A DNA stretch of 64,000 bases. Source: Haladaptatus cibarius D43 (lineage in GTDB: Archaea > Halobacteriota > Halobacteria > Halobacteriales > Haladaptataceae). The first letter of the stretch is position 1, and the number at the start of each line of letters is the position of its first letter. A model generated the notes under the pieces. It did no database searches. It had not been told where the DNA came from and was given only the letters and a program-made list of their open reading frames with translations. This document shows, piece after piece, positions 1,329-64,000 of this stretch. Both the position numbers and the translations under genes were made by a program. Where the stretch lies: positions 806,001 through 870,000 of the forward strand of contig NZ_JDTH01000001.1 of assembly GCF_000710615.1 (NCBI RefSeq), in the 5' to 3' direction.

Positions 1329-2171
1329 ATGACCGTCAATATACTCGTCCCGTCGTCCCTCGTCCGGGAAGCCGAAGACAAACGCGAGGCAACTCGCAAA
1401 ATCGGCTACGTCGCCCGCGCGGCGACCATCTTCCGGGCAGATAACCTCATCGTCTTCCCCGATTCGGAAGGCGAGCGAAAATGGGGCGGCGGATTCGTCG
1501 AAACCGTACTCCGGTACGCCGCAACCCCGCCATACCTCCGAAAGGAGGCGTTCGGGAAGCAAGACGAGTTGGAGTATGTTGGCGTCCTACCGCCGCTCCG
1601 CGCACCATCGCAGACCGGCTCCGAATCCGACGATTCGGGGTCGTTAAGACAGGGAATCGTGACCGAGGTCGGACCTGAAGGGCGCGTCCGGGTCAATTGC
1701 GGATTGCAACACCCGATTTCGCTCGTCGTCCCGTCGCAAATGACGGTCGGCGAGGGGGAGCGCGTTACCGTCAGGATCTCTTCGAGAAGACCGGTTCGTG
1801 CGAAGCTCGTGGACGCCCCGCAGTCGGGCTACACAGTGATGCGCATGAACCTCTCGGCGGCCCTCGACCGCGACGATGCTGGCGTTCGAATCGCCACGTC
1901 TCGCTTCGGAGAATCGCTCTCCGTGGCGCGACTCGACGAAATCGTTGCGCAAACCGAACGCGACGGCATGACCGTCGTGTTCGGCTCGCCCGGTCGGGGA
2001 CTGCCGGAGATACTCGGGGTTGAACCCGAGCGTATCTCCGCGGTCGAATCCGGCGTACCAGCCCGGTTCGACCTCTGGCTGAATACGGTTCCGAACCAAG
2101 GCAGCGAGGTCATACGAACTGAAGAAGCGATGTTCGCTTCCCTCGCCTGCCTCAACCTCAACAGCGAGTGA
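1329..2171 (+). CDS. Putative RNA methyltransferase, SPOUT fold (DUF171 / COG2106)
   Basis: This 280-residue protein begins MTVNILVPSSLVREAEDKRE. It has the DUF171 arrangement of an N-terminal SPOUT half, an inserted OB-like beta domain around residues 100-170 (GIVTEVGPEGRVRVNCGLQ), and a C-terminal SPOUT half with the cofactor loop VVFGSPGRGLPEILG near residue 220. Related proteins are RNA uridine or SAM-dependent methyltransferases, and the archaeal gene commonly lies just before rpl3, as here (4-base spacer). That position suggests rRNA modification coupled to ribosome synthesis. I chose ATG 1329 because the upstream in-frame sequence is unlike the family and lies over the promoter. The exact target base is unknown. 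Confidence 0.85.
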   Translation: MTVNILVPSSLVREAEDKREATRKIGYVARAATIFRADNLIVFPDSEGERKWGGGFVETVLRYAATPPYLRKEAFGKQDELEYVGVLPPLRAPSQTGSESDDSGSLRQGIVTEVGPEGRVRVNCGLQHPISLVVPSQMTVGEGERVTVRISSRRPVRAKLVDAPQSGYTVMRMNLSAALDRDDAGVRIATSRFGESLSVARLDEIVAQTERDGMTVVFGSPGRGLPEILGVEPERISAVESGVPARFDLWLNTVPNQGSEVIRTEEAMFASLACLNLNSE

Positions 2172-2175
2172 TACG

Positions 2176-3192
2176 ATGCCACAAACAAGCAGACCACGAA
2201 AAGGTTCGCTGGGCTTCGGCCCCCGTAAGCGTGCAACCAGCGAGGTTCCACGCTTCAACTCATGGCCCGACAGCGACGGTCAGCCGTCGCTCCAAGGCTT
2301 TGCGGGCTACAAGGCAGGAATGACCCACGTGGTGATGGTTAACGACGAAGCAAACTCCCCCCGCGAAGGGATGGAGGAAACCGTTCCCGTCACCATCGTC
2401 GAGACGCCCCCAATGCGGGCCGTCGCTCTCCGAGCCTACGAAGACACGCCATACGGGAAGAAGCCGCTGACGGAAGTGTGGGGAAGCGAGTTCCACGACG
2501 AACTCGACCGCACGCTCAACGTGCCGGAAAACCACGACGCCGACTCCGCGGAGGACGAACTCCGCACCGCCATCGAGGCAGGCGACGTGGCAGACCTCCG
2601 GGTCATCACCCACACCGTCCCAAGCGAGCTGAAGAACGTACCGAAGAAACGACCGGACGTCATGGAAACGCGCATCGGCGGCGGCTCCCTCACGGAGCGC
2701 GCCGACTTTGCGCTCGACGTACTCGAAGACGGCGGGGAACACGACATCACTGACGTGTTCCGCGCAGGCGAGTACCTCGACATCGGTGGCGTCACGAAAG
2801 GTAAAGGAACGCAGGGTCCCGTCAAACGATGGGGCGTCCAGAAGCGGAAGGGCAAACACGCCCGCCAAGGCTGGAGACGCCGCATCGGGAACCTCGGCCC
2901 GTGGAATCCGTCGCGCGTTCGCTCGACGGTTCCACAGCTGGGTCAGATGGGCTACCACCAGCGCACCGAACTTAACAAGCGCCTCATCTCCCTCGGCGAC
3001 GACGACGAAGCCTCCGTCGACGGCGGATTCGTCAACTACGGCGAGGTCGATGGCTCGTACGCGCTCATCAAGGGTTCGGTTCCGGGGCCGAACAAGCGCC
3101 TCGTGCGCTTCCGCCCTGCGATTCGACCGACTGACCAACCGCGCCTCGACCCCGAGGTGCGCTACGTAAGCACGGAGTCTAACCAGGGATAA
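2176..3192 (+). CDS. rpl3: 50S ribosomal protein uL3
   Basis: uL3 (338 residues) binds 23S rRNA near the peptidyl-transferase centre and starts large-subunit assembly. It opens MPQTSRPRKGSLGFGPRKRA, the archaeal/eukaryotic N-terminus, and has the GFAGYKAGMTHVV segment and the glycine-rich central loop around GGVTKGKGTQGPVKRWG that reaches toward the catalytic centre. Its length is normal for haloarchaea. It begins 4 bases after the SPOUT gene and is followed by rpl4 after 3 bases. A 20-base palindrome at 2272-2291 lies in its coding sequence but encodes residues (SDGQPSL) that fit the family. Confidence 0.98.
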   Translation: MPQTSRPRKGSLGFGPRKRATSEVPRFNSWPDSDGQPSLQGFAGYKAGMTHVVMVNDEANSPREGMEETVPVTIVETPPMRAVALRAYEDTPYGKKPLTEVWGSEFHDELDRTLNVPENHDADSAEDELRTAIEAGDVADLRVITHTVPSELKNVPKKRPDVMETRIGGGSLTERADFALDVLEDGGEHDITDVFRAGEYLDIGGVTKGKGTQGPVKRWGVQKRKGKHARQGWRRRIGNLGPWNPSRVRSTVPQLGQMGYHQRTELNKRLISLGDDDEASVDGGFVNYGEVDGSYALIKGSVPGPNKRLVRFRPAIRPTDQPRLDPEVRYVSTESNQG

Positions 3193-3195
3193 CCC

Positions 3196-3942
3196 ATGCA
3201 GGCAACAGTACGTGACCTGAATGGCGAGGAAGCTGACACGGTTGACCTTCCGGACGTGTTCGACACGACTGTCCGGACGGATCTCATCAAGCGTGCAGTG
3301 CTCGCCGCACAGGCAAACCGGAAACAAGACTACGGCACCGACCCGCACGCCGGAATGCGGACCTCCGCCGAGTCGCCGGGCAGTGGCCGCGGTATGGCCC
3401 ACGTCCCGCGAACGAACGGAAAGGCCGCTCGCGTTCCATTCACCGTGGGCGGGCGTGTCGCACACCCGCCAAAGGCGGAGAAAGACCGAACGCTCTCCAT
3501 CAACAAGAAAGAGCGAAAGCAGGCAATCCGAGGCGCCATCGCGGCGACGACGGATGCAGAGCGCGTCTCCGAGCGCGGACACCGCTTCGACGAGGACACC
3601 GAACTGCCGCTCGTCGTGAGCGATGAGTTCGAAGACCTCGTCAAGACGCAGGAAGTCGTTTCCTTCCTCGAAGCGGTCGGCATTGATGCCGACGTCACGC
3701 GCGCGGAAGAAAACAAGACGATTCGCGCAGGGCGCGGGACGACCCGTGGCCGCAAGTACAAGACGCCGAAGTCGATTCTGTTCGTCACCAGCGAAGAACC
3801 ATCGCGCGCGGCGCGCAACCTCGCTGGCGCTGACGTTGCGACGGCGCGTGAGGTCAACGCGGAAGACCTCGCACCCGGCACGCAAGCAGGACGACTCACC
3901 GTCTGGACGGAGAGCGCACTCGAAGAGGTGGCTGACCGATGA
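3196..3942 (+). CDS. rpl4: 50S ribosomal protein uL4
   Basis: uL4 (248 residues) lines the polypeptide exit tunnel. It begins MQATVRDLNGEEADTVDLPD and carries the tunnel-loop region PHAGMRTSAESPGSGRGMAH near residue 50, followed by the archaeal-type globular domain. There is no C-terminal eukaryotic extension. Its stop overlaps the rpl23 start by four bases (ATGA), which predicts translational coupling. Confidence 0.98.
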   Translation: MQATVRDLNGEEADTVDLPDVFDTTVRTDLIKRAVLAAQANRKQDYGTDPHAGMRTSAESPGSGRGMAHVPRTNGKAARVPFTVGGRVAHPPKAEKDRTLSINKKERKQAIRGAIAATTDAERVSERGHRFDEDTELPLVVSDEFEDLVKTQEVVSFLEAVGIDADVTRAEENKTIRAGRGTTRGRKYKTPKSILFVTSEEPSRAARNLAGADVATAREVNAEDLAPGTQAGRLTVWTESALEEVADR

Positions 3943-4190
3943 GCGTAATAGAGTATCCGTGGGTTACGGAGAAGGCGATGAACAAGATGGACTTCGACAA
4001 CAAGCTCCAGTTTATCGTTTCGCTCGACGCCACGAAGCCAGAGATTCGAGACGAAGTCGAAGAGCGCTACGAAGTCACCATCGAGAAAATCAACACCCAA
4101 GTGACGATGAAAGGGAAAAAGAAGGCGACCGTCGCGCTGTCGGACGATGACGACGCGCAGGACGTCGCCTCCCGAATCGGGGTGTTCTGA
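3939..4190 (+). CDS. rpl23: 50S ribosomal protein uL23
   Basis: This 83-residue protein starts MSVIEYPWVTEKAMNKMDF and has the family's beta-alpha-beta fold with the conserved VTEKAM and EERYEVTIEKINT segments. uL23 sits at the tunnel exit and is a docking site for SRP and the translocon. Archaeal versions are short, as here. It overlaps rpl4 by four bases and precedes rpl2 by two. Confidence 0.98.
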   Translation: MSVIEYPWVTEKAMNKMDFDNKLQFIVSLDATKPEIRDEVEERYEVTIEKINTQVTMKGKKKATVALSDDDDAQDVASRIGVF

Positions 4191-4192
4191 CA

Positions 4193-4915
4193 ATGGGACG
4201 AAGGATTCAGGGACAGCGACGTGGTCGCGGTGGACCGACTTTCCGCGCACCGTCGCACCGATACAAGGCTGAACTGAGCCACAAGCAGAACGAAGACAAC
4301 GACTTGGTCACTGGCACGGTCGTCGGCATCGAACACGACCCTGCTCGCAGTGCCCCAGTCGCGGCCATCGAATTCGACGATGGCGACCAGCGACTCGTCC
4401 TCGCGCCGGAAGGCGTCGGAGTGGGCGAGGAGATTCAGGTCGGCGTCTCCGCCGAAATCAAGCCCGGCAACACGCTCCCGCTCGCCGAAATCCCGGAAGG
4501 GGTTCCGGTGTGCAACGTCGAGCGCCAGCCCGGTGACGGCGGAAAGTTCGCGCGCGCCTCCGGCGTCAGCGCGGATCTCATCACGCACGACCGAGAGGCC
4601 GCAGTCGTCGAACTCCCGAGCGGCGAAATCAAGCGCTTGTCGCCTGATTGCCGCGCCACCATCGGCGTCGTCGCCGGTGGCGGACGAACGGAGAAACCGA
4701 TGGTCAAGGCCGGTAACAAACATCACAAAATGCGAGCACGCGGCACGAAGTGGCCGAACGTGCGTGGTGTGGCGATGAACGCCGTTGACCACCCATTCGG
4801 TGGCGGTGGCCGCCAGCACCCCGGCCGACCGAAAAGCGTTTCGCGGGATGCCCCGCCGGGACGAAAGGTCGGAGACATCGCGTCCAAACGAACCGGACGT
4901 GGAGGTAACAAATGA
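4193..4915 (+). CDS. rpl2: 50S ribosomal protein uL2
   Basis: uL2 (240 residues) is essential for subunit association and peptidyl transfer. It begins [20 protein letters not shown]. The C-terminal signature around residues 190-215 contains [20 protein letters not shown], including the histidine implicated in peptidyl-transferase activity. Size and domain order (OB fold, then SH3-like) are normal. It overlaps rps19 by four bases. Confidence 0.98.
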
Positions 4916-5337
4916 GCGGAAACGAATACCGAACCGGACGCGAAGGTGAGTTCACCTATCGCGGCTACGACCTTGACGAACTGCAGGACATGAGCCTGGA
5001 GGAAGTCGCAGAACTGCTCCCCGCACGCAAGCGGCGAAGCATCCTTCGCGGGTTGACCGTCGAGCAGGAGAAATTGCTCGAAAAGGCCCGGAACAAAACC
5101 GAGGAAGAATCGGCAAACAGCCCGATTCGGACGCATCTGCGCGACATGCCGGTGCTTCCATCGTTCGTTGACAAGACGTTCGCCGTCTACAACGGCAGTG
5201 AGTTCGAACGTGTCCGCATCGAGCCGGAGATGTTGGGCCACTACCTCGGCGAGTTCCAGCTGACCCGCAATTCAGTTGAACACGGACAAGCAGGAATCGG
5301 TGCGACCCGCTCCTCGAAGTTCGTGCCACTCAAATAA
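4912..5337 (+). CDS. rps19: 30S ribosomal protein uS19
   Basis: uS19 (141 residues) is part of the head of the small subunit. The N-terminal half is an archaeal/eukaryotic extension ([20 protein letters not shown]). The conserved core follows, with [20 protein letters not shown] and [20 protein letters not shown], and the protein ends [11 protein letters not shown]. Three bases separate it from rpl22. Confidence 0.98.
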
Positions 5338-5340
5338 ACC

Positions 5341-5802
5341 ATGGGAATCAGCTACAGCGTCGATGCCGACCCGGACACCACCGCGAAAGGGATGCTTCGG
5401 GAGCGGCATATGAGCCACAAGCACAGCAAGGCGATTGCCCGCGAAATCAAGGGCAAAACTGCCGAGGACGCGAAAGCGTACCTCCAGCAGGTCGTGAACG
5501 AGGAGCGGTCGGTGCCGTTTAAGCAGCACAACAGCGGCGTCGGCCATCGCTCGGACATCGACGGCTGGGACGCAGGTCGCTACCCAGAGAAGGCGAGCAA
5601 GGCGTTCATCGAACTCCTCGACAACGTCACCGCCAACGCGGATGCGCAGGGCTTCGACGGCGAGTCGATGGAAATCATGCACGTCGCCGCCCATAAGGTC
5701 GGCGAAGTGCAGGGCCGAAAGCCTCGCGCATTCGGCCGTGCAAGCGCCTGGAACACCCCTGAAGTGGATGTCGAACTCATCCTTGAGGAGGTCGAAGAAT
5801 AA
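5341..5802 (+). CDS. rpl22: 50S ribosomal protein uL22
   Basis: uL22 (153 residues) contributes to the tunnel constriction. It begins MGISYSVDADPDTTAKGMLR, has the early helix with MSHKHSKAIAREIKGK, and near the C-terminus the GRASAWNTPEVDVELILEEV tail of archaeal versions. The conserved beta-hairpin region is near QGRKPRAFGRAS. Its stop codon shares one base with the rps3 start. Confidence 0.98.
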   Translation: MGISYSVDADPDTTAKGMLRERHMSHKHSKAIAREIKGKTAEDAKAYLQQVVNEERSVPFKQHNSGVGHRSDIDGWDAGRYPEKASKAFIELLDNVTANADAQGFDGESMEIMHVAAHKVGEVQGRKPRAFGRASAWNTPEVDVELILEEVEE

Positions 5803-6692
5803 TGGCAGACGAACATCAATTCATCGAAGACGGGCTTCAGCGCTCGCAGATAGACGAGTTCTTCTCGGAAGAACTCGGTCGCGCGGGCTACGGCGGCATG
5901 GATGTCGCCAAGACGCCGATGGGGACACAGATCGTTCTCAAGGCCGAAAAGCCCGGTATGGTTATCGGAAAGGGCGGAAAGAACATCCGGAAGATCACCC
6001 GAGAACTCGGCGAGCGGTTCAATCTCGACGACCCGCAGATCGACGTTCAAGAGGTTGACGAACCGGATCTGAACGCCCGAATCGTCGCCGACCGACTCGC
6101 CAACGCGCTCGAACGCGGTTGGTACTTCCGGAAGGCAGGTCACACGACCATCGACCGTATCATGGATTCCGGCGCACTTGGTGCCGAAATCGTCCTGTCC
6201 GGGAAAGTCACGGGCGCACGTTCGCGCGTGGAGAAGTTCAACCGTGGCTACATCAAACACAACGGTGAACCCGCACAGGAAATCGTCGACCACGGTCAGG
6301 GCGTCGCAGTGATGAAACTCGGCACCATCGGCGTGGACGTCAAAATCATCCCGCCGGGAGCCAACCTGCCCGACGACTTCCACATCGAGGAGGGTGCGAA
6401 CCCAGAAGAACTCGTCCCGGAAGCCGTCGAGGCAAACGAACAAGCGACTCTCATCGAGGAACCCGACGAGGAAACCCTCGAAGAACTCGAAGCCGACGAG
6501 GAATCGCCGGAACCCGGCGAAACCGAAGTTGACGAAGAAATCGTCGAAGAAGTCATCGAGGAAGAGTCGGCAGAGGCAGACGACTCCGAACCCGAGTCCG
6601 TCGAAGAAGAACTCGACGAACTCGAAGAGGAAGTCGAAGCCGAAGCCGAGGAACTGCTCGAAGAGATGGAAGACGAGGAGAGTGAAGAATAA
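5802..6692 (+). CDS. rps3: 30S ribosomal protein uS3 with long acidic tail
   Basis: uS3 forms the mRNA entry channel. Residues 1-200 contain the KH domain ([18 protein letters not shown]) and the C-terminal uS3 domain ([20 protein letters not shown]). About 90 further residues are almost entirely Glu/Asp. Such acidic tails are a haloarchaeal feature, and the total of 296 residues is on the long side for archaea. The tail probably keeps this RNA-binding protein soluble in molar salt. Overlaps with both neighbours are one base. Confidence 0.97.
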
Positions 6693-6904
6693 TGGCGATT
6701 CTTCACACTGGAGAAATCCGCGACATGACGCCTGCCGAGCGTGAAGCAGAACTCGAAGAACTCGAGACGGAACTGCTCAACACGAAGGCAGTCAAGGCCG
6801 CGGGTGGTGCACCCGAAAATCCGGGTCGCATCAAGGAACTTCGCCGAACTATCGCTCGAATCAAGACGATTCAGCAAGAAGAAGGGGACTCTACGGAAGA
6901 GTAA
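6692..6904 (+). CDS. rpl29: 50S ribosomal protein uL29
   Basis: This 70-residue two-helix protein begins [20 protein letters not shown] and ends in the [20 protein letters not shown] helix typical of uL29. It lies near the tunnel exit next to uL23. The start overlaps the rps3 stop by one base. Confidence 0.96.
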
Positions 6905-6906
6905 CC

Positions 6907-7290
6907 ATGCCACTGACAGCCGAGACGCTCACGAAACACGAACTCGCCGGTCTACCCGTGCGAGTCGTTTCAGCCACGAATCCCGCTCTCGAAGGTATCG
7001 AGGGTCAGGTCGTGTCCGAAACGATGCGCACGCTTACCGTCGAGTCTGCGTCTCGGTCGTGGCAGGTACCAAAGCAGGGCACGAGATTCGAGTTCAGACT
7101 CACAGATGAAGCCGCCGTTTCCTGCGAAGGAACGGGGACTCCGTCCAAACGGGAGTCGGAAACTGCCGGAGGGAACTCCGGTCAGTCTGGCTTCTGCGAG
7201 GGCGGAGCCTACGTTACGGTGGATGGATTCACACTGCTCTCACGACCCGCATTGCGTACCGAAGCAGGAGGTAATTCGAAATGGCGTTAG
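6907..7290 (+). CDS. rnp1: Ribonuclease P protein component 1 (Rpp29/Pop4)
   Basis: This 127-residue protein has the Sm-like barrel of archaeal Rpp29, with [20 protein letters not shown] near residue 12 and [14 protein letters not shown] near residue 54. It is a subunit of RNase P, which matures tRNA 5' ends. The gene lies between rpl29 and rps17 in most archaea, which confirms the call. Its 3' end overlaps the rps17 start by ten bases. A low-complexity Ser/Gly/Glu stretch around residues 72-97 interrupts the barrel and is probably a loop insertion. Confidence 0.93.
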
Positions 7291-7625
7291 GATTGAACGT
7301 ACCAGAACCGGAGGAGACATGCTCCGACGAGGACTGCCCGTTCCACGGAACGCTTTCCGTGCGCGGACAGATTCTCGAAGGAGAGGTCGCCTCCACCGAC
7401 ATGGAAAAGACCGTTGTCGTCGAGCGAGAGTACGACGTTACAGTGCCGAAATACGACCGGCAAATGAAACGTCGCTCCCGCGTTCCGGCCCACGCGCCGG
7501 AGTGCCTGACTCTCGAAGTCGGCGAAACGGTTCGTATCGCAGAAACCCGACCGCTCTCGAAGACGAAATCACACGTCGTCATCGAGACCGTGGCGGACGA
7601 CGCCACGGAGGGAGGTGACAACTAA
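7281..7625 (+). CDS. rps17: 30S ribosomal protein uS17
   Basis: uS17 (114 residues) binds 16S rRNA helix 11. It has the archaeal N-terminal extension with [20 protein letters not shown], then the OB-fold core [20 protein letters not shown] and the family motif [10 protein letters not shown]. It overlaps rnp1 by ten bases and rpl14 by one. Confidence 0.97.
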
Positions 7626-8023
7626 TGGAAGCGCTGAAAGCTGACGTGACGCAGGGCGTCGAGAAAGGCTCCCTGCTCAACTGTGCCGACAACACCGGCG
7701 CACGCGAGCTGAAAGTCATCAGCGTCTCCGGCTACCACGGCACGAAGAGCCGCCACCCGAAGGCAGGCATCGGTGACAAAATCACCGTGTCCGTCACGAA
7801 GGGGACGCCCGAGATGCGGCGTCAGGTGCTGGAAGCCGTCATCATTCGACAGCGCAAATCCATCCGCCGACCGGACGGCACGCGTGTCAAATTTGAAGAC
7901 AACGCTGCCGTCGTTATCGACGACGTCGAAGAGCCGCGAGGGACGGAGATCAAAGGTCCCATCGCGCAAGAAGTCGCCGAGCGGTTCGGAAGTATTGCAA
8001 GCACAGCTACGATGATAGTATGA
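7625..8023 (+). CDS. rpl14: 50S ribosomal protein uL14
   Basis: uL14 (132 residues) forms an intersubunit bridge. Diagnostic parts are [20 protein letters not shown] near residue 17, the [12 protein letters not shown] region near residue 75 and the C-terminal [12 protein letters not shown]. It overlaps rpl24 by four bases (ATGA). Confidence 0.98.
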
Positions 8024-8376
8024 CCCGACAACCACGCAAACAGCGAAACCAGACCGAACGCGCCCCGCTTCACCAGCGGCATCAGCAGGTCAAAGCGACG
8101 CTGTCCGACGACCTCCGCGAGGAGTACGGTCAGCGAAGCGTCCGCGTCAACGCGGGCGACACGGTCGAGGTCATGCGCGGCGATTTCGCCGGCGAAGAGG
8201 GCGAAGTGCTCGAAGTGGATATGAAGAATTCAGTCATCCACGTCGAGGAAGTCATCCTCGAAAAAGCAGACGGCGAGGACGTTCCGCGTCCGCTCGACAC
8301 GAGCAACGTTCGCGTGACCGACCTCAACCTCGAAGACGACCGCCGCGAGGCGCGTCTGGAAGGTGATACCGAATGA
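8020..8376 (+). CDS. rpl24: 50S ribosomal protein uL24
   Basis: uL24 (118 residues) is an assembly initiator. It begins [20 protein letters not shown] and has the KOW motif [20 protein letters not shown] near residue 43. The C-terminal archaeal section ends in an acidic tail. It overlaps its neighbours by four bases on both sides. Confidence 0.98.
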
Positions 8377-9074
8377 GCAACCATCAGAAACGACTCTCCG
8401 TTCCGAACTCCTGGCCGGTCGAACGAAAGACCGCCACGTTCACCGTGAAGGCCGGCGCTGGCCCGCACGGGCGTGACGGTGTCCCGCTCCTCATCATTCT
8501 GCGGGACGTACTGGGCTACACGAACTCGAAGAAGGAAGCCCGCTACGCGCTCAACCAGGATTCCGTTCTCGTGAACGGCGAGGCAATCAGCGACGAACAG
8601 CGACCCATCGGCATGTTCGACATCATCGCGTTCACCGAACGCGAAGAGTACTACCGCGTCTTCCCCGACGAAGGTGGACGCCTCGCGCTGACCCCCATCG
8701 ACGCAGATGCGGCGGACGGCCGACTGGCGAAAATCGACGACAAGACGCAGGTGTCCGGTGGCGAAACGCAACTCAACCTCCACGACGGAAGCAATCTCCG
8801 CGTGGACGACGCCGACGACTACAGCACGAAAGACTCCATCGTCGTGGGAACCGAGGAGAAAGACATTCTCGCTCACTTCCCATACGAGGAAGGCTGTCTC
8901 GTCACTGCCGTCCGCGGTCAGCACGCGGGCGAAATCGGCGAAGTCACCGACATCACGGTGACGCCCGGAAGCGGTTCGAACACCGTCACCGTCGACGGTG
9001 ACGACGCCACGTTCGAAACCGTCGAAGAGTACCTCGTCGTCATCGACGAGAACTTCACGGGTGATGACGAATGA
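8373..9074 (+). CDS. rps4e: 30S ribosomal protein eS4
   Basis: eS4 (233 residues) is specific to archaea and eukaryotes. It shows the S4-like RNA-binding segment with [20 protein letters not shown] near residue 55, a central barrel ([20 protein letters not shown]) and a C-terminal KOW domain ([20 protein letters not shown]). It overlaps rpl5 by four bases. Confidence 0.97.
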
Positions 9075-9595
9075 GCGAAGCCGAGGCCGACTTCCACGAG
9101 ATGCGAGAGCCGAAAGTGGAGAAAGTCGTCGTCCACATGGGCGTCGGTGAAGGTGGTCGAGAACTCGCCAACGCCGAGGAAATCTTAGAAGACGTGACCG
9201 AACAGGAGAGCGTCCGCACGCTGGCGAACTCCACGCTTCCGGACTTCGGCATCCGTCAGGGCGACCCAATCGGTGCGAAGGTCACGCTTCGTGGCGAAAC
9301 CGCACACGAGTTCCTCGACACTGCACTGCCGCTTTCCAGTCTCTCGAAATCGCAGTTCGACGAGACAGGGAACTTCAGCTTCGGTGTCGATGAACACACC
9401 GAGTTCCCGAGTCAGGAATACGATCCGAACGTCGGAATCTACGGGCTTGACGTGACCGTCAACCTCGTCCGACCGGGCTACCGCGTCGCAAAGCGCGACA
9501 AGGTGTCCCGCCAGATTCCGTCGAACCACCGACTGACGGCTGAGGACGCAACGGCGTTCATCGAAGCCAACTTCGACGTTGAGGTGGACGAATGA
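9071..9595 (+). CDS. rpl5: 50S ribosomal protein uL5
   Basis: uL5 (174 residues) binds 5S rRNA with uL18. It starts [20 protein letters not shown] and has the [20 protein letters not shown] motif and the [20 protein letters not shown] stretch of archaeal L5/eukaryotic L11. It overlaps rps14 by four bases. Confidence 0.98.
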
Positions 9596-9768
9596 GCGAA
9601 AGTGAGAACGACGCGACCGGCGAGCAGACGGCCAAACGCACTGGACAAATCGAAACGTGCCAGCGCTGCGGTCGAAAGCAAGGTCTGGTCGGAAAATACG
9701 ACATCAATCTGTGTCGCCAGTGCTTCCGCGAGATTGCACGCGACATGGGATTCAAGAAGTACCGATAA
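9592..9768 (+). CDS. rps14: 30S ribosomal protein uS14, zinc type
   Basis: A short gene of 58 residues starts at the ATG that overlaps the rpl5 stop. The zinc site is C23-x2-C26 and C41-x2-C44 (ETCQRCGRK and [11 protein letters not shown]), and the protein ends DMGFKKYR as uS14 proteins do. It lies exactly where rps14 is expected between rpl5 and rps8. The acidic N-terminal 18 residues are a haloarchaeal extension. Confidence 0.97.
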
Positions 9769-9770
9769 CC

Positions 9771-10163
9771 ATGGCAGGAAACGACCCACTCAGCAACGCA
9801 CTCTCAGGCGTGGACAATGCCGAGAGTGTCGGTCATCTGTCCCACACGGTACAGCCCGCCTCGAACGAGATCGGCAGCGTACTTGAGGTCTTTTACGACC
9901 ACGGGTACATCGACGGCTTCGAGTTCGTCGACGACGGCAAAGCCGGTCACTTCGAGGTCGAACTAAAAGGCGCAATCAACGAATGTGGCGCGGTCAAGCC
10001 CCGGTACTCCGCGGGCAAAGACGACTTCGAGAAGTGGGAGAAACGATTCCTCCCGGCCCAAGATTACGGGTCACTCGTCGTCACGACCAGCCACGGCGTC
10101 ATGAGCCACTACGAGGCCCGCGAACAGGGAATCGGTGGCCAAGTCATCGCCTACGTCTACTAG
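9771..10163 (+). CDS. rps8: 30S ribosomal protein uS8
   Basis: uS8 (130 residues) organises the central domain of 16S rRNA. The start at 9771 follows the rps14 stop by two bases and gives [20 protein letters not shown]. Later segments [20 protein letters not shown] and [20 protein letters not shown] match the C-terminal signature. A longer in-frame reading from 9657 exists but overlaps rps14 and is not used. Confidence 0.97.
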
Positions 10164-10167
10164 AACC

Positions 10168-10704
10168 ATGCCACGAGTAGAAATCGAAATTCCGGACGAG
10201 GTGACCGCTGACGTAGACCACCTCGACCTGACCGTTGATGGACCGGAAGGAACCGTTACGCGACGGCTCTGGTACCCAGACATCACTGTCAGCGTTGAGG
10301 ACAACGCAGTAGTCATCGAGAGCGATTCCACCGACGCCAAAACGAAGGCGACGATGGGAACGTTCGAGAGCCACGCACGAAACATGATTCACGGCGTGTC
10401 CGAGGAGTGGGAGTACAAGATGGAAGTCTTCTACTCTCACTTCCCGATGCAGGTTCGTTCCGAGGGCGACGCAGTCGTCATCGAGAACTTCCTCGGTGAG
10501 AAAGCGCCCCGTAAGACGAACATCCACGGGGACACCACCGTTGAAGTCAGCGACGAGGAACTCTCCCTGCGCGGCCCCAGCATCGAAGACGTGGGCCAGA
10601 CCGCCGCGGACATCGAACAACTCACTCGCGTGAGCGGCAAAGACACGCGCGTGTTCCAAGACGGCGTCTACATCACGGAAAAGCCGTCTACAGGAGGTGC
10701 CTGA
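10168..10704 (+). CDS. rpl6: 50S ribosomal protein uL6
   Basis: uL6 (178 residues) has two related domains and sits near the factor-binding site. The start MPRVEIEIPDEVTADVDHLD is the archaeal form. The second domain has VEVSDEELSLRGPSIEDVGQ and TRVSGKDTRVFQDGVYITEK. It begins four bases after rps8 and is followed by rpl32e after three. Confidence 0.97.
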   Translation: MPRVEIEIPDEVTADVDHLDLTVDGPEGTVTRRLWYPDITVSVEDNAVVIESDSTDAKTKATMGTFESHARNMIHGVSEEWEYKMEVFYSHFPMQVRSEGDAVVIENFLGEKAPRKTNIHGDTTVEVSDEELSLRGPSIEDVGQTAADIEQLTRVSGKDTRVFQDGVYITEKPSTGGA

Positions 10705-10707
10705 TAG

Positions 10708-11409
10708 ATGGCAGACGAACCAGAACAGATAGAAGACGTCAGCGGTGTTGGCGATAGCAAGGCCGAGTCGCTCCGCGACGCGGGCTACGAGTCCGTCAAG
10801 GACATCGCCAGTGCCAGTCAGGACGACCTCGCCGAAGTCGATGGAATCGGCAACGCACTCGCCGCCCGTATCAAAGCGGACGTCGGTGCCCTCGAAGTCG
10901 AAGAGGAAACCGAAGCCGAAATCGAGGACGACGAGGCAGAGGAAGAGGAACCGGACGAAGATGTCGAAACCGAACTGCAACCACGCGGCCTGACCGAGAA
11001 GACGCCAAGCCTCGAAGACGAGGAAGCGCGACTTCTCCAACAGCGCAAACGCGAAGGCAAACCGCAGTTCAATCGACAGGACTACCACAAGAAAAAGCGG
11101 ACGCCCAAATCGTGGCGCAAGCCCCGCGGTGCGCTGAGCAAGCAACGCCGCGGCATCAAGGGCAAAGGCGACATGGTCGAGGCGGGCTACCGCACGCCGA
11201 AATCCGTCCGGGGCAAACACCCGAGCGGATTCGACGAGGTTCACGTCCACAACGTCGACGACTTAGACGGCGTGGACGGCGACACGGAAGCGGTTCGTAT
11301 CGCCTCGAAAGTCGGTGCTCGCAAACGCGAGCGTATCGAGGAAGTCGCCGAGGAAGAGGGCATTCGTGTCCTCAACCCGACCTACGTCGAAGTGGAGGTA
11401 GAAGAATGA
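10708..11409 (+). CDS. rpl32e: 50S ribosomal protein eL32 with N-terminal helix-hairpin-helix extension
   Basis: The last ~125 residues are eL32 ([20 protein letters not shown] onward). The first ~60 residues are a separate helix-hairpin-helix module ([12 protein letters not shown]-like; actual [20 protein letters not shown] and [20 protein letters not shown]), joined by a very acidic linker. The fusion makes the protein 233 residues, nearly twice the size of non-halophilic eL32. The HhH part resembles DNA/RNA-binding modules. Its role in the ribosome is unclear to me. The stop overlaps the rpl19e start by four bases. Confidence 0.95.
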
Positions 11410-11846
11410 GTGACCTGAGTGCACAGAAGCGACTCGCCGCTGACGTGCTCGACGTCGGGAAGAACCGCGTTTGGTTCGACCCCGACGCGCAGGGTGCCAT
11501 CGCGGACGCGATTACCCGCGAAGACATCCGCGAACTCGTCGACGACGGGTCGATTCAGGCGAAAGACGCAAAGAGCAACTCCCGCGGCCGCGCCCGCGAG
11601 CGCAAAGCGAAGCGCAAATACGGTCACCGCAAGGGACCGGGCACCCGGAAGGGGAAGAAGGGCGGCCGCAAGGACTCCAAAGAGGAGTGGCAGAACCAAA
11701 TCCGCGCGCAGAGACGCAAACTGCGTGAACTCCGTTCCGAGGGCGAAATCACGAAGTCGCAGTACCGCGACCTCTACGACAAGTCCAAGGGTGGCGAGTT
11801 CCGTAGCGTGCAGTATCTGCTCAACTACATCGAGAACAACTACTAA
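11406..11846 (+). CDS. rpl19e: 50S ribosomal protein eL19
   Basis: eL19 (146 residues) starts [20 protein letters not shown] and continues with the basic linker [20 protein letters not shown], which threads into rRNA. The start at 11406 overlaps rpl32e by four bases; a much longer in-frame reading upstream runs antisense to family expectation and over rpl32e, so it is rejected. Confidence 0.97.
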
Positions 11847-11848
11847 CA

Positions 11849-12403
11849 ATGGCAACTGGACCACGATACAAGGTGCCGATGCGCCGACGCCGCGAGGTCC
11901 GAACTGACTACCATCAGAGGTTGCGCCTGCTGAAATCGGGCAAGCCCCGCCTGGTCGCTCGGAAGAGCAACCAGCACGTCAGGGCGCAGCTGGTCACGAT
12001 GGGTCCCGACGGCGACAATACGGTTGCAAGTGCGTTCTCCGGCGATCTGGAGGAGTACGGCTGGGAAGCCCCGACGGGCAACCTCCCCAGCGCGTACCTC
12101 ACTGGATACCTGCTCGGCAAACGCGCACTTGACGCCGACTACGAGGAAGCAGTCCTCGACATCGGCCTCAACACGGCAACCCCCGGTAGCAAGGCATTCG
12201 CAGTACAGGAAGGTGCAATCGACGCTGGCCTCGACATCCCGCACAACGACAGCGTGCTGGCTGACTGGTCGCGTAACCGCGGCGAACACATCGCCGAGTA
12301 CGCAGAACAGCTAGACGACTCGCTGTACGGCGGCGATTTCGACGCCACCGAACTACCTGAGCACTTCGACGAAGTGCTCTCTACCCTCCAGGAGGACGAA
12401 TAA
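11849..12403 (+). CDS. rpl18: 50S ribosomal protein uL18
   Basis: uL18 (184 residues) binds 5S rRNA. It opens [20 protein letters not shown] and contains [20 protein letters not shown] and the central [20 protein letters not shown]. The length matches archaeal L18/eukaryotic L5 rather than the short bacterial form. It is separated from its neighbours by 1-2 bases. Confidence 0.97.
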
Positions 12404-12404
12404 T

Positions 12405-13052
12405 ATGTGTGCAAACTACAACGACGGCTGGGAACCCCAGACCCGTCTCGGCCGTAAGGTCGCCGAGGGCGAAATCGACACGATGGAAGGCGCCCTCAAT
12501 TCCGGACTCCCGCTGAAGGAGCCGGAACTCGTTGACCAGCTCCTTCCCGGACTCGAAGACGAAGTGCTGGACATCAACATGGTTCAGCGCATGACTGACT
12601 CCGGGCGGCGTGTCAAGTTCCGCTGTGTCTGTGCAATCGGCAACCGCGACGGGTTCGTCGGCTACGCAGAAGGACGAGACGACCAAGTCGGCGGCGCAAT
12701 CCAGAAAGCAATCGAGATTGCGAAGCTGAACATCGTCAACGTTCCTCGCGGCGCAGGCTCGTGGGAAGACCGCAGCGACCGACCGCACTCGCTCACCCAC
12801 CGGACGACCGGCAAGGCGGGCAGTGTGGAAGTTGAACTCATTCCGGCACCGGCCGGATTGGGGCTTGCGGCGACCGACACCGTGCGTAAAATCCTCGAAC
12901 TCTCGGGTATCGAGAACGCATGGACGAAGAGCCACGGCAACACGCGAACGACGCTCAACCTCGCCAAGGCGACGTACAACGCCTTGGAGAACGCATCGCA
13001 GGCACGCGGCCCGCGCGCCCGCCCCGATGAAGAGCCGGAGGTGGCCGACTGA
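12405..13052 (+). CDS. rps5: 30S ribosomal protein uS5
   Basis: uS5 (215 residues) shapes the decoding site and mRNA entry. It has the dsRBD-like motif [20 protein letters not shown] and the C-terminal [20 protein letters not shown]. The segment [20 protein letters not shown] is the archaeal insertion. Its stop shares one base with the rpl30 start. Confidence 0.97.
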
Positions 13053-13516
13053 TGAAAGCAGTCGTCCAGATTCGCGGCGAGGTAGACATGACGCAGGGTG
13101 TCCGTGACACGCTGAGCATGCTCAACCTCCACAAGGTCAACCACTGCGCGCTGGTTCCGGAGACGGAAACCTACCGCGGCATGGTGACGAAGGTCAACGA
13201 CTGGGTCGCACACGGCGAACCAGAACGGGACGTTCTCGAGACGGTTCTGTCGAAGCGCGCACGAGTGCTCGACGGAAACGAGGACGTTGACGAGGAATGG
13301 CTCGCAGAGAACACAGAGTACGCCGACTTCGCCGAACTCGCGGAGGCGCTCCTCGACGAGGAGACGACGCTCCGAGAACAGGGACTGACGCCCGTCCTTC
13401 GACTCCACCCGCCACGCGGTGGTCACGACGGCATCAAACACCCCACGAAAGAGGGCGGCCAACTCGGCAAACACACGACTGAGGAAATCAACGAACTCCT
13501 CAAGTCGATGCGATAA
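13052..13516 (+). CDS. rpl30: 50S ribosomal protein uL30
   Basis: uL30 (154 residues) starts [20 protein letters not shown], with the conserved LNLHKVNHCALVPETETYRG. It is of the longer archaeal/eukaryotic L7 type. The C-terminal segment contains LHPPRGGHDGIKHPTKEGGQ. It is followed by rpl15 after two bases. Confidence 0.97.
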   Translation: MKAVVQIRGEVDMTQGVRDTLSMLNLHKVNHCALVPETETYRGMVTKVNDWVAHGEPERDVLETVLSKRARVLDGNEDVDEEWLAENTEYADFAELAEALLDEETTLREQGLTPVLRLHPPRGGHDGIKHPTKEGGQLGKHTTEEINELLKSMR

Positions 13517-13518
13517 CC

Positions 13519-14001
13519 ATGAGTAAGAAACGACGCCAACGTGGCTCGCGCACGCACGGCGGCGGGACGCACAAGAACCGCCGCGGTGCGGGTAACCGCG
13601 GTGGACGCGGACGCGCAGGCCGCGCCAAACACGAGTTCCACAACTACGAACCGCTCGGAAAGCACGGGTTCAAACGACCCGAAGACGCAAAGGAGACGGT
13701 GCTCACCGTGTCCGTGCAGAAACTCGACGAAGACGCCATGCTCTTCGCGGCAGAGGGCATTGCCGAGGAAACCGACGACGGCTACGAAATCGACGCACGC
13801 GACGTCGTCGATGACGGCTGGGACGCCGACGCCGTCAAGGTGCTCGGCGGCGGTCAGGTTCGCAACAGCCTCGACGTGACCGCGGACGCCTTTTCGGCAT
13901 CCGCAGTCGAACTCATCGAGGAAGCGGACGGCGACGCCGTCCTTAGCGACCGCGCCGAAGCAGAAGAAGACGAGTCGGACGACGAAGACGAAGCCGAGTA
14001 A
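13519..14001 (+). CDS. rpl15: 50S ribosomal protein uL15
   Basis: uL15 (160 residues) has the Gly/Arg/His-rich N-terminus RQRGSRTHGGGTHKNRRGAG that penetrates rRNA and the VLGGGQVRNSLDVTADAFSA C-terminal core. It ends in a run of Glu/Asp residues, as often in halophiles. It closes the tightly packed part of the superoperon; the next gene, secY, starts 314 bases downstream. Confidence 0.97.
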   Translation: MSKKRRQRGSRTHGGGTHKNRRGAGNRGGRGRAGRAKHEFHNYEPLGKHGFKRPEDAKETVLTVSVQKLDEDAMLFAAEGIAEETDDGYEIDARDVVDDGWDADAVKVLGGGQVRNSLDVTADAFSASAVELIEEADGDAVLSDRAEAEEDESDDEDEAE

Positions 14002-62687: not shown

Positions 62688-63671
62688 TTACTTTCGACCG
62701 CGCGCCGCGAGTTGGTACGCCAGCACCGTCCGCATCCCATCGACGAATGCATTGAGGTCGATGCTGTCCGCCTGTTCCTGTCGCTCCCGCACAGCCTCGT
62801 ATCGCCGTTCCCATTCGTTTATAAACTGGTCTTCGATGTCGTGTGACCGAATCTGTTCGGTCACTCGTTCGATGGCGTCGTCGTCGGTGGCATCTAAATC
62901 TTCCAACGAGATGAAACCCTCTTGCAGACTGTAGATGACTGGCCCGGCCGTGTAATCTCCCTCGCCGAGTTCGCGCTCCCACGTCGTCGTCCAGTTGCCG
63001 ATTCGGGCCATCCGCTGTAACTCCCAGATGACCGACCGCAGTGTGGAAAGGTCGTTCGCGTCGAACGACGGCGAGAACATCAAATCGACGCCAGCGTACG
63101 GAAACATCAACATGTTGTGCGGATCATAATGCTCTATTCCCGCCATGTTGGCGATTTCGACGTGGTCGTTCAACACGCGAGAGTAGTCGATAGCAGTCAG
63201 TGTTTGGCGGAGGTCGCAGTCGAAAATGTCCCTGTGCTCGTCGTGTTTTGGTGCAACTTCGATACCTTCTTCGAACGCCGCCCAAACGCGTTTGATGAAC
63301 CGTAACTGCTCCGTTTTTACCCCCTCTCTGCCGGGGTTCACAGTTTCGGGACGATACGGAATCTGACACGCCTCTTCGAAGGTTTCTCGGTCGTTGCCCT
63401 TCTCCGCGAGGTCGTCCAATAGGGTCACGAACATCGTCAGAATTGTCTTCTGCGTCCGGGCCGTCTCCGCGTATTCCGCCGGAACGGACGAAAGGGTAAA
63501 CGATGGAAACAGCGTGTATATCCATTGCCAGAGGAACTCGTCTCGGTCACCAACGATAGTGTCGTATTCCTTCGATAGCGCCGCAATCGGCTCGGGAAGC
63601 GTCACCGCCGCAATCTCAGTCAGATGGTTTGAAGGAATTGGTAGCTCGTCGATGAGCTGTTGGCGGGGCAT
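62688..63671 (-). CDS. Probable class I terpene synthase-like protein
   Basis: The 327-residue, almost all-helical protein shows both metal-binding motifs of class I terpene synthases in the right order and spacing: TLLDDLAEKG (DDxxE, residues 86-90) and ARIGNWTTTWERELGEGD, where N226, T230 and E234 fit the NSE pattern N(D)xxSxxxE. An RY dipeptide (INEWERRYEAVR, residues 290-291) follows about 60 residues later, as in bacterial terpene synthases. Helix spacing and length fit the fold. These enzymes ionise prenyl diphosphates with three Mg2+. The second NSE residue is Trp rather than Asp, and the pyrophosphate-sensor Arg is not clear, so this may be a new subfamily. It has no prenyltransferase neighbour. 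I cannot exclude another isoprenoid-synthase-fold function. Confidence 0.6.
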   Translation of the reverse strand: MPRQQLIDELPIPSNHLTEIAAVTLPEPIAALSKEYDTIVGDRDEFLWQWIYTLFPSFTLSSVPAEYAETARTQKTILTMFVTLLDDLAEKGNDRETFEEACQIPYRPETVNPGREGVKTEQLRFIKRVWAAFEEGIEVAPKHDEHRDIFDCDLRQTLTAIDYSRVLNDHVEIANMAGIEHYDPHNMLMFPYAGVDLMFSPSFDANDLSTLRSVIWELQRMARIGNWTTTWERELGEGDYTAGPVIYSLQEGFISLEDLDATDDDAIERVTEQIRSHDIEDQFINEWERRYEAVRERQEQADSIDLNAFVDGMRTVLAYQLAARGRK

Positions 63672-63793
63672 TCTCGTGTCTTCTTTACTGTATGGATAAT
63701 AAAAACACTTCTGCTACATTTTCTAAGAATTGTCTAAAAGATGCCTACTCTCGGTACAAATATATGGTCAGCCTCTCGACTGTTTATCGAGAC

Positions 63794-64000
63794 ATGGTGT
63801 CCTCCGACCCAGCCATCTACAAGACCGCGTTTCGGGAGACGAGAAATCCCGCCGTCATCACCGACGCGAATTTCGTCATACAGGATGTAAATGAGGCCTG
63901 CGTCGATTTCACCGGCTACAGCAGGGACGAACTCGTCGGGGACACGCCGATGAGTCTGTTTAGCGAACCAGCCGTGTACGAAGCAATGATAGAATCGTTG
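63794..64000 (+). CDS. PAS domain sensor protein, 5' part only
   Basis: The 69 codons visible begin MVSSDPAIYKTAFRETRNPA. The segment AVITDANFVIQDVNEACVDF is the start of a PAS domain, followed by TGYSRDELVGDTPMSLFSEP, the most conserved PAS helix and strand. Haloarchaeal proteins with this start are usually PAS/GAF sensors ending in a bacterioopsin-activator HTH or a histidine kinase. The type cannot be decided, since the gene leaves the window. It is divergent from the terpene-synthase-like gene over 122 bases, with AT-rich sequence in the spacer. Confidence 0.8.
   Translation, partial: MVSSDPAIYKTAFRETRNPAVITDANFVIQDVNEACVDFTGYSRDELVGDTPMSLFSEPAVYEAMIESL

Follow-up and report, generated by a model that had tools for sequence, protein, structure and literature searches.

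A divergent family of probable class I terpene synthases in haloarchaea, frequently encoded beside sensor genes

The synthase locus in Haladaptatus

The window, that is the whole 64,000-nucleotide stretch of the Haladaptatus cibarius D43 genome that was analysed, carries close to one end a gene for a very probable terpene synthase of divergent type, separated by a short intergenic region from a sensor kinase gene. The features of this locus are the following:

62688..63671, minus strand: gene of a probable divergent class I terpene synthase, 327 residues (intact ORF, 74-member alignment, PF19086 matches in relatives, profile match, dN/dS)
63402..63416, minus strand: codons of the predicted aspartate-rich metal motif DDLAE, residues 86-90 (conserved in 74 members, aligned to D80-D81 of pentalenene synthase)
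62970..62996, minus strand: codons of the predicted NSE-type metal motif N226-W-T-T-T230-W-E-R-E234 (conserved in 74 members, aligned to pentalenene synthase)
62799..62804, minus strand: Arg290-Tyr291 dipeptide, variable in 74 members and not counted as a functional motif
63686..63719, minus strand: conserved upstream block of 34 nt with a TATA-like TTTTTATTATC ~25-33 nt before the start codon (cross-species comparison)
63794..64000, plus strand: start of a divergently oriented PAS-domain sensor histidine kinase gene that runs past the window to ~64852 (the complete gene, at L113, matches Pfam PAS_9 and HATPase_c)

The reading frame that the original prediction had placed at 62688-63671 is intact and encodes 327 residues, but it is encoded by the minus strand; the plus strand is full of stop codons. 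The gene is present as a single copy in its own genome, and the closest named orthologue of its product, from H. litoreus, is 95% identical. Comparison with the intact Haladaptatus orthologues yields dN/dS values of 0.07-0.13, and the gene is therefore under purifying selection. Two species of the genus nevertheless carry pseudogenes, suggesting that the gene is dispensable in places: the H. pallidirubidus copy (examined at L003, L115 and L020) contains a stop codon exactly at W227, while that of H. halobius (L006, L118 and L022) exhibits two stops and a D86N or D87N change that alters the aspartate-rich motif (LLDN). Elsewhere in the window, positions 2001-14000 display an AT skew of +0.25 to +0.34 across 12 kb with few long ORFs, and probably correspond to a run of co-directional genes.

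The synthase gene is flanked on one side by a Na+/H+ antiporter gene and on the other by the kinase gene, whose start codon, picked from orthologues, is located ~120 bp from that of the synthase. The upstream block hardly varies among five Haladaptatus species, whereas the remaining intergenic region diverges, and it may represent a putative promoter giving rise to a leaderless transcript. The kinase is intact in five Haladaptatus genomes that possess the synthase, absent from three that are devoid of it, and reduced to a fragment in H. halobius, in which the synthase is broken too. Within the genus, the kinase is confined to genomes containing the synthase gene or its remnant, a co-occurrence that may be due in part to the two neighbouring genes having been lost together.

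Metal motifs and relationship to class I terpene synthases

Residue conservation was counted over 74 family members less than 85% identical to each other. Both metal motifs initially recognised in the window protein are present and conserved throughout. In the DDxxE motif (residues 86-90), D87 is found in 74/74 members, D86 in 70 (the other four having Asn), and position 90 is acidic in all of them (Glu in 62, Asp in 12). The NSE-type motif N226-x3-T230-x3-E234, located inside ARIGNWTTTWERE, retains N226 and E234 in 74/74 members and always a Thr (72) or a Ser (2) at position 230. R43, W48, W50, D196, R212, R223, W231 and D239 are likewise invariant among the 74, and R233 is kept in 72 of them. 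As judged from this alignment, the conservation of the metal motifs is far beyond chance.

The second position of the NSE motif is not a metal ligand. The Trp that occupies it instead of Asp, first regarded as an oddity of this gene, is indeed present but is not peculiar to it, W227 being invariant in the Halobacteria family (74/74). The C-terminal RY motif assigned to residues 290-291 does not hold, since these columns contain Arg in 30 and Tyr in 50 of the 74 members. As an RY dipeptide anywhere after residue 250 occurs in 31/74, a conserved RY motif is rejected for the family and the pair of the window protein looks incidental. The pyrophosphate-sensor Arg, ~46 residues before the NSE Asn, is absent at the aligned residue E180, which falls in a variable column (Glu 16, Trp 16, Thr 7 and Arg 7 among the 74 members).

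The most distant relative (L152:8611-9507), encoded by a methanogen-side genome of 4.2 Mb, displays DDSCD and NTVNTWKRE without Trp after the Asn. This protein does not return any Pfam hit, and it may be a bridge to other undetected archaeal synthases. The original prediction would have been refuted by close homologues in which the acidic and NSE positions are not conserved; close and distant homologues retain both, so the class I assignment survives.

Searches with the window protein alone against Pfam, NCBIfam and the PDB report no terpene family match, and a PF19086 search of the source genome does not return any hit either. The search against terpene synthase profiles suggested at the outset is therefore negative for the protein itself but positive for its relatives, as PF19086 (Terpene_syn_C_2) matches 56 of the 74 (best E 8.8e-8); PF03936 matches 13 of the 74 members. 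Taken one by one, sampled members score around the curated PF19086 cut-off, most of them below it and a few reaching 23.7 bits or more. The family profile was also compared with a reference profile of 17 class I terpene synthases, of which 14 come from plasmids and three are bacterial, one of the latter being identical letter for letter to PDB 4okm. The two profiles align over residues 22-322 with an E-value of 7.8e-6 and a score of 49.1, as compared with scores of at most 17.2 for the controls (12 column shuffles and a reversed profile); a profile of three synthases, too thin for this purpose, gave an E-value of 0.075. In this alignment, D86-D87 correspond to D80-D81 of pentalenene synthase, N226/T230/E234 to its N219/S223/E227, and R233 to its K226. 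Motif conservation, the PF19086 hits in relatives, the full-length profile match and the register of the motifs thus all uphold the assignment to class I terpene synthases.

Fold prediction points weakly in the same direction. Single-sequence folding of the window protein reaches a pLDDT of 35, and an AF2 model from a seven-row alignment a pLDDT of 54 and a pTM of 0.52, with residues 154-243 below pLDDT 50. Foldseek analysis of this low-confidence model reports isoprenoid-synthase-type proteins for 48 of the 50 matches listed, mainly polyprenyl and farnesyl diphosphate synthases, although the E-values are not significant (best E 0.039 among the matches listed, TM-scores of ~0.25). The model is thus suggestive of isoprenoid synthases and, given these values, the fold result is supportive only.

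Distribution and gene neighbourhoods of the family

A search with a 15-row profile places the family in 121 of the 394 Halobacteria genomes (40 of 86 genera), and a deeper profile extends it to further families on the methanogen side of the phylum. No relative was found on viral contigs; six are carried by haloarchaeal plasmids and annotated as "hypothetical protein". In the tree, the window gene belongs to a clade of 17 (98/95) and the Haladaptatus group is strongly supported. Most members are stand-alone proteins. At L090:7763-9280, the synthase shares one 505-aa ORF with a receiver domain and HalX, a single case for which a sequencing error is possible.

The lack of neighbouring tailoring genes, pointed out in the original prediction, applies to the window, within which no tailoring gene adjoining the synthase was found, but not to relatives in other haloarchaea. 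The L075:1-18001 locus comprises a synthase, a SnoaL protein, a P450, a class III aminotransferase, an alpha/beta hydrolase, two FAD monooxygenases and two methyltransferases, and looks like a complete terpenoid cluster of a haloarchaeon. At L122:5735-12228, two synthase paralogues enclose a P450 gene as well as genes for two small, related proteins of 180 and 205 residues; L087 possesses a related P450, and an FAD monooxygenase gene adjoins the synthase at L131 and L090. Proteins of 197-209 residues similar to the L122 small proteins, with no Pfam match, are encoded next to the synthase at L087 and L066. The P450, FAD-monooxygenase and methyltransferase genes around relatives support the idea that the family makes terpenoids. 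As for the source genome, it encodes two polyprenyl diphosphate synthases that are possible substrate suppliers, and four P450s located away from the synthase gene.

Sensor genes are the other recurrent neighbours, the window gene and many of its relatives adjoining PAS kinases or Bat regulators. Over 77 loci, PAS matches occur in 19 of the 121 nearest genes and in at most 2 of 143 genes more than 4.5 kb away (Fisher p ~1e-5, relatedness being ignored), these counts being approximate because the neighbouring genes were called as simple ORF picks. The genes beside the synthases are likewise enriched in Bat, metallo-beta-lactamase and HVO_A0261-type regulators, and sensor neighbours are found in at least four clades of the tree. 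In Haladaptatus, the adjacent PAS kinase probably controls the use of the synthase gene. More generally, such frequent environmental sensor neighbours suggest that these salt-loving archaea produce terpene-type small molecules in response to cues.

Proposed activity, alternatives and significance

The homology, motif conservation, selection and gene neighbourhood established here by computation are best explained if the window gene encodes, as we consider highly likely, a class I terpene synthase that depends on Mg and belongs to a divergent subfamily present mainly in Halobacteria. The two acidic residues of DDxxE together with the N/T/E triad would hold three Mg ions, and these would bind a linear prenyl diphosphate, possibly GGPP or FPP, through its diphosphate group. 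Once this group has left, the protein would steer the resulting carbocation towards a C15, C20 or C25 terpene or terpene alcohol, probably a cyclic one. Gripping of the diphosphate would probably dispense with the usual sensor Arg and RY pair and fall to other residues, the candidates being R233 as well as R43, R212 and R223, all three of them invariant.

Since the sensor Arg and the RY pair are missing, ionisation or closure may differ from those of canonical enzymes. Together with the many loci that display no obvious tailoring genes, this leaves some room for an unlikely scenario in which the fold and metal site are kept but cyclisation is lost. The protein would then be a prenyl-diphosphate phosphatase, would form an acyclic alcohol or olefin (e.g. 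geranylgeraniol), or would take an unusual substrate, for instance an apocarotenoid or an archaeal lipid diphosphate. However, both metal motifs are very strongly constrained, and the genes that relatives adjoin (P450, FAD-monooxygenase, methyltransferase and SnoaL) are typical of pathways leading to cyclised terpenoids. Even less probable, by a clear distance, is a signalling output domain with the terpene synthase fold that would serve PAS, Bat or response-regulator systems rather than produce a small molecule. The PAS enrichment among nearest genes, the single response-regulator-HalX-synthase fusion and the co-occurrence with the kinase within Haladaptatus would all fit such a role, whereas the invariance of the catalytic metal residues across the family, the biosynthetic clusters around other members and the stand-alone nature of most of them argue for an enzyme. 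Finally, a chain-elongating trans-isoprenyl diphosphate synthase or a head-to-head condensing squalene/phytoene synthase relative, towards which the Foldseek matches listed would lean, can practically be dismissed: an NSE-type triad replaces the second aspartate-rich motif in 74/74 members, relatives match Terpene_syn_C_2 in Pfam and not polyprenyl_synt or SQS_PSY, and the source genome contains separate members of both of these families.

As a divergent class I terpene synthase family, these proteins resemble the bacterial-type enzymes of PF19086 (pentalenene, selinadiene and epi-isozizaene synthases) in length, in the aspartate-rich motif, in an NSE-type triad whose Glu is preceded by a basic residue and in full-length profile similarity. 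They share with them ~12% identity in the profile alignment, and differ by the Trp replacing Asp at NSE position 2, by the absence of an aligned pyrophosphate-sensor Arg and of a conserved RY, and by individual scores that for most members lie below the curated Pfam cut-off. The sole solved structure matched by the family profile is Sat1646 (PDB 7e4n/7e4o), across the NSE helix; the match, to 7e4n, is marginal (E 0.054), and Sat1646, unlike the family, has the canonical ND in its NSE motif.

Plasmids of Halocatena marina (L154:5485-6924) and Actinarchaeum halophilum (L155:5470-6891) encode canonical class I terpene synthases (PF19086 E-values of ~1e-46 to 1e-49) that are annotated only as "SRPBCC family protein". 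They are haloarchaeal and class I like the present family, but they possess an N-terminal SRPBCC/polyketide-cyclase domain, the canonical ND..S..(K/R)E and an RY, belong to a bacterial-like lineage and are encoded beside polyprenyl synthetase genes. With them, haloarchaea have two lineages of terpene synthases.

According to a 2021 genome paper (PMC8600319), terpenes in archaea had been the subject of one earlier report only, by gene-cluster mining. The preprint of Samusevich et al. (bioRxiv 2024.01.29.577750), cited by a 2025 database paper (PMC12797696), has archaeal terpenoid biosynthesis in common with the present work, as far as its title indicates. On the basis of these sources, archaeal terpene synthases are a known kind of enzyme. 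This divergent, sensor-linked synthase family was not found described in the literature searched, the coverage of which excluded bioRxiv and most subscription journals.

A more far-reaching reading, which we hold to be doubtful, is that the synthases of haloarchaea and of some methanogens act as sensory effectors. Production of a terpene, serving as a signal or protectant linked to light, oxygen or stress, would be triggered by PAS kinases, by Bat-type regulators and, in a single genome, by a fused response-regulator domain, and the diphosphate-gripping residues of these synthases would differ from those of all canonical class I synthases.

If the family is active, about three in ten sampled Halobacteria genomes would carry a terpene synthase that is "hypothetical" in public annotation and scored poorly or missed by current models. 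It would represent a source of terpenoids in organisms from which lipids, carotenoids and quinones are the main isoprenoids known, as well as a test of which diphosphate-binding residues class I synthases can spare. The repeated pairing with PAS and Bat genes makes the use and timing of archaeal terpenes directly testable in haloarchaea.
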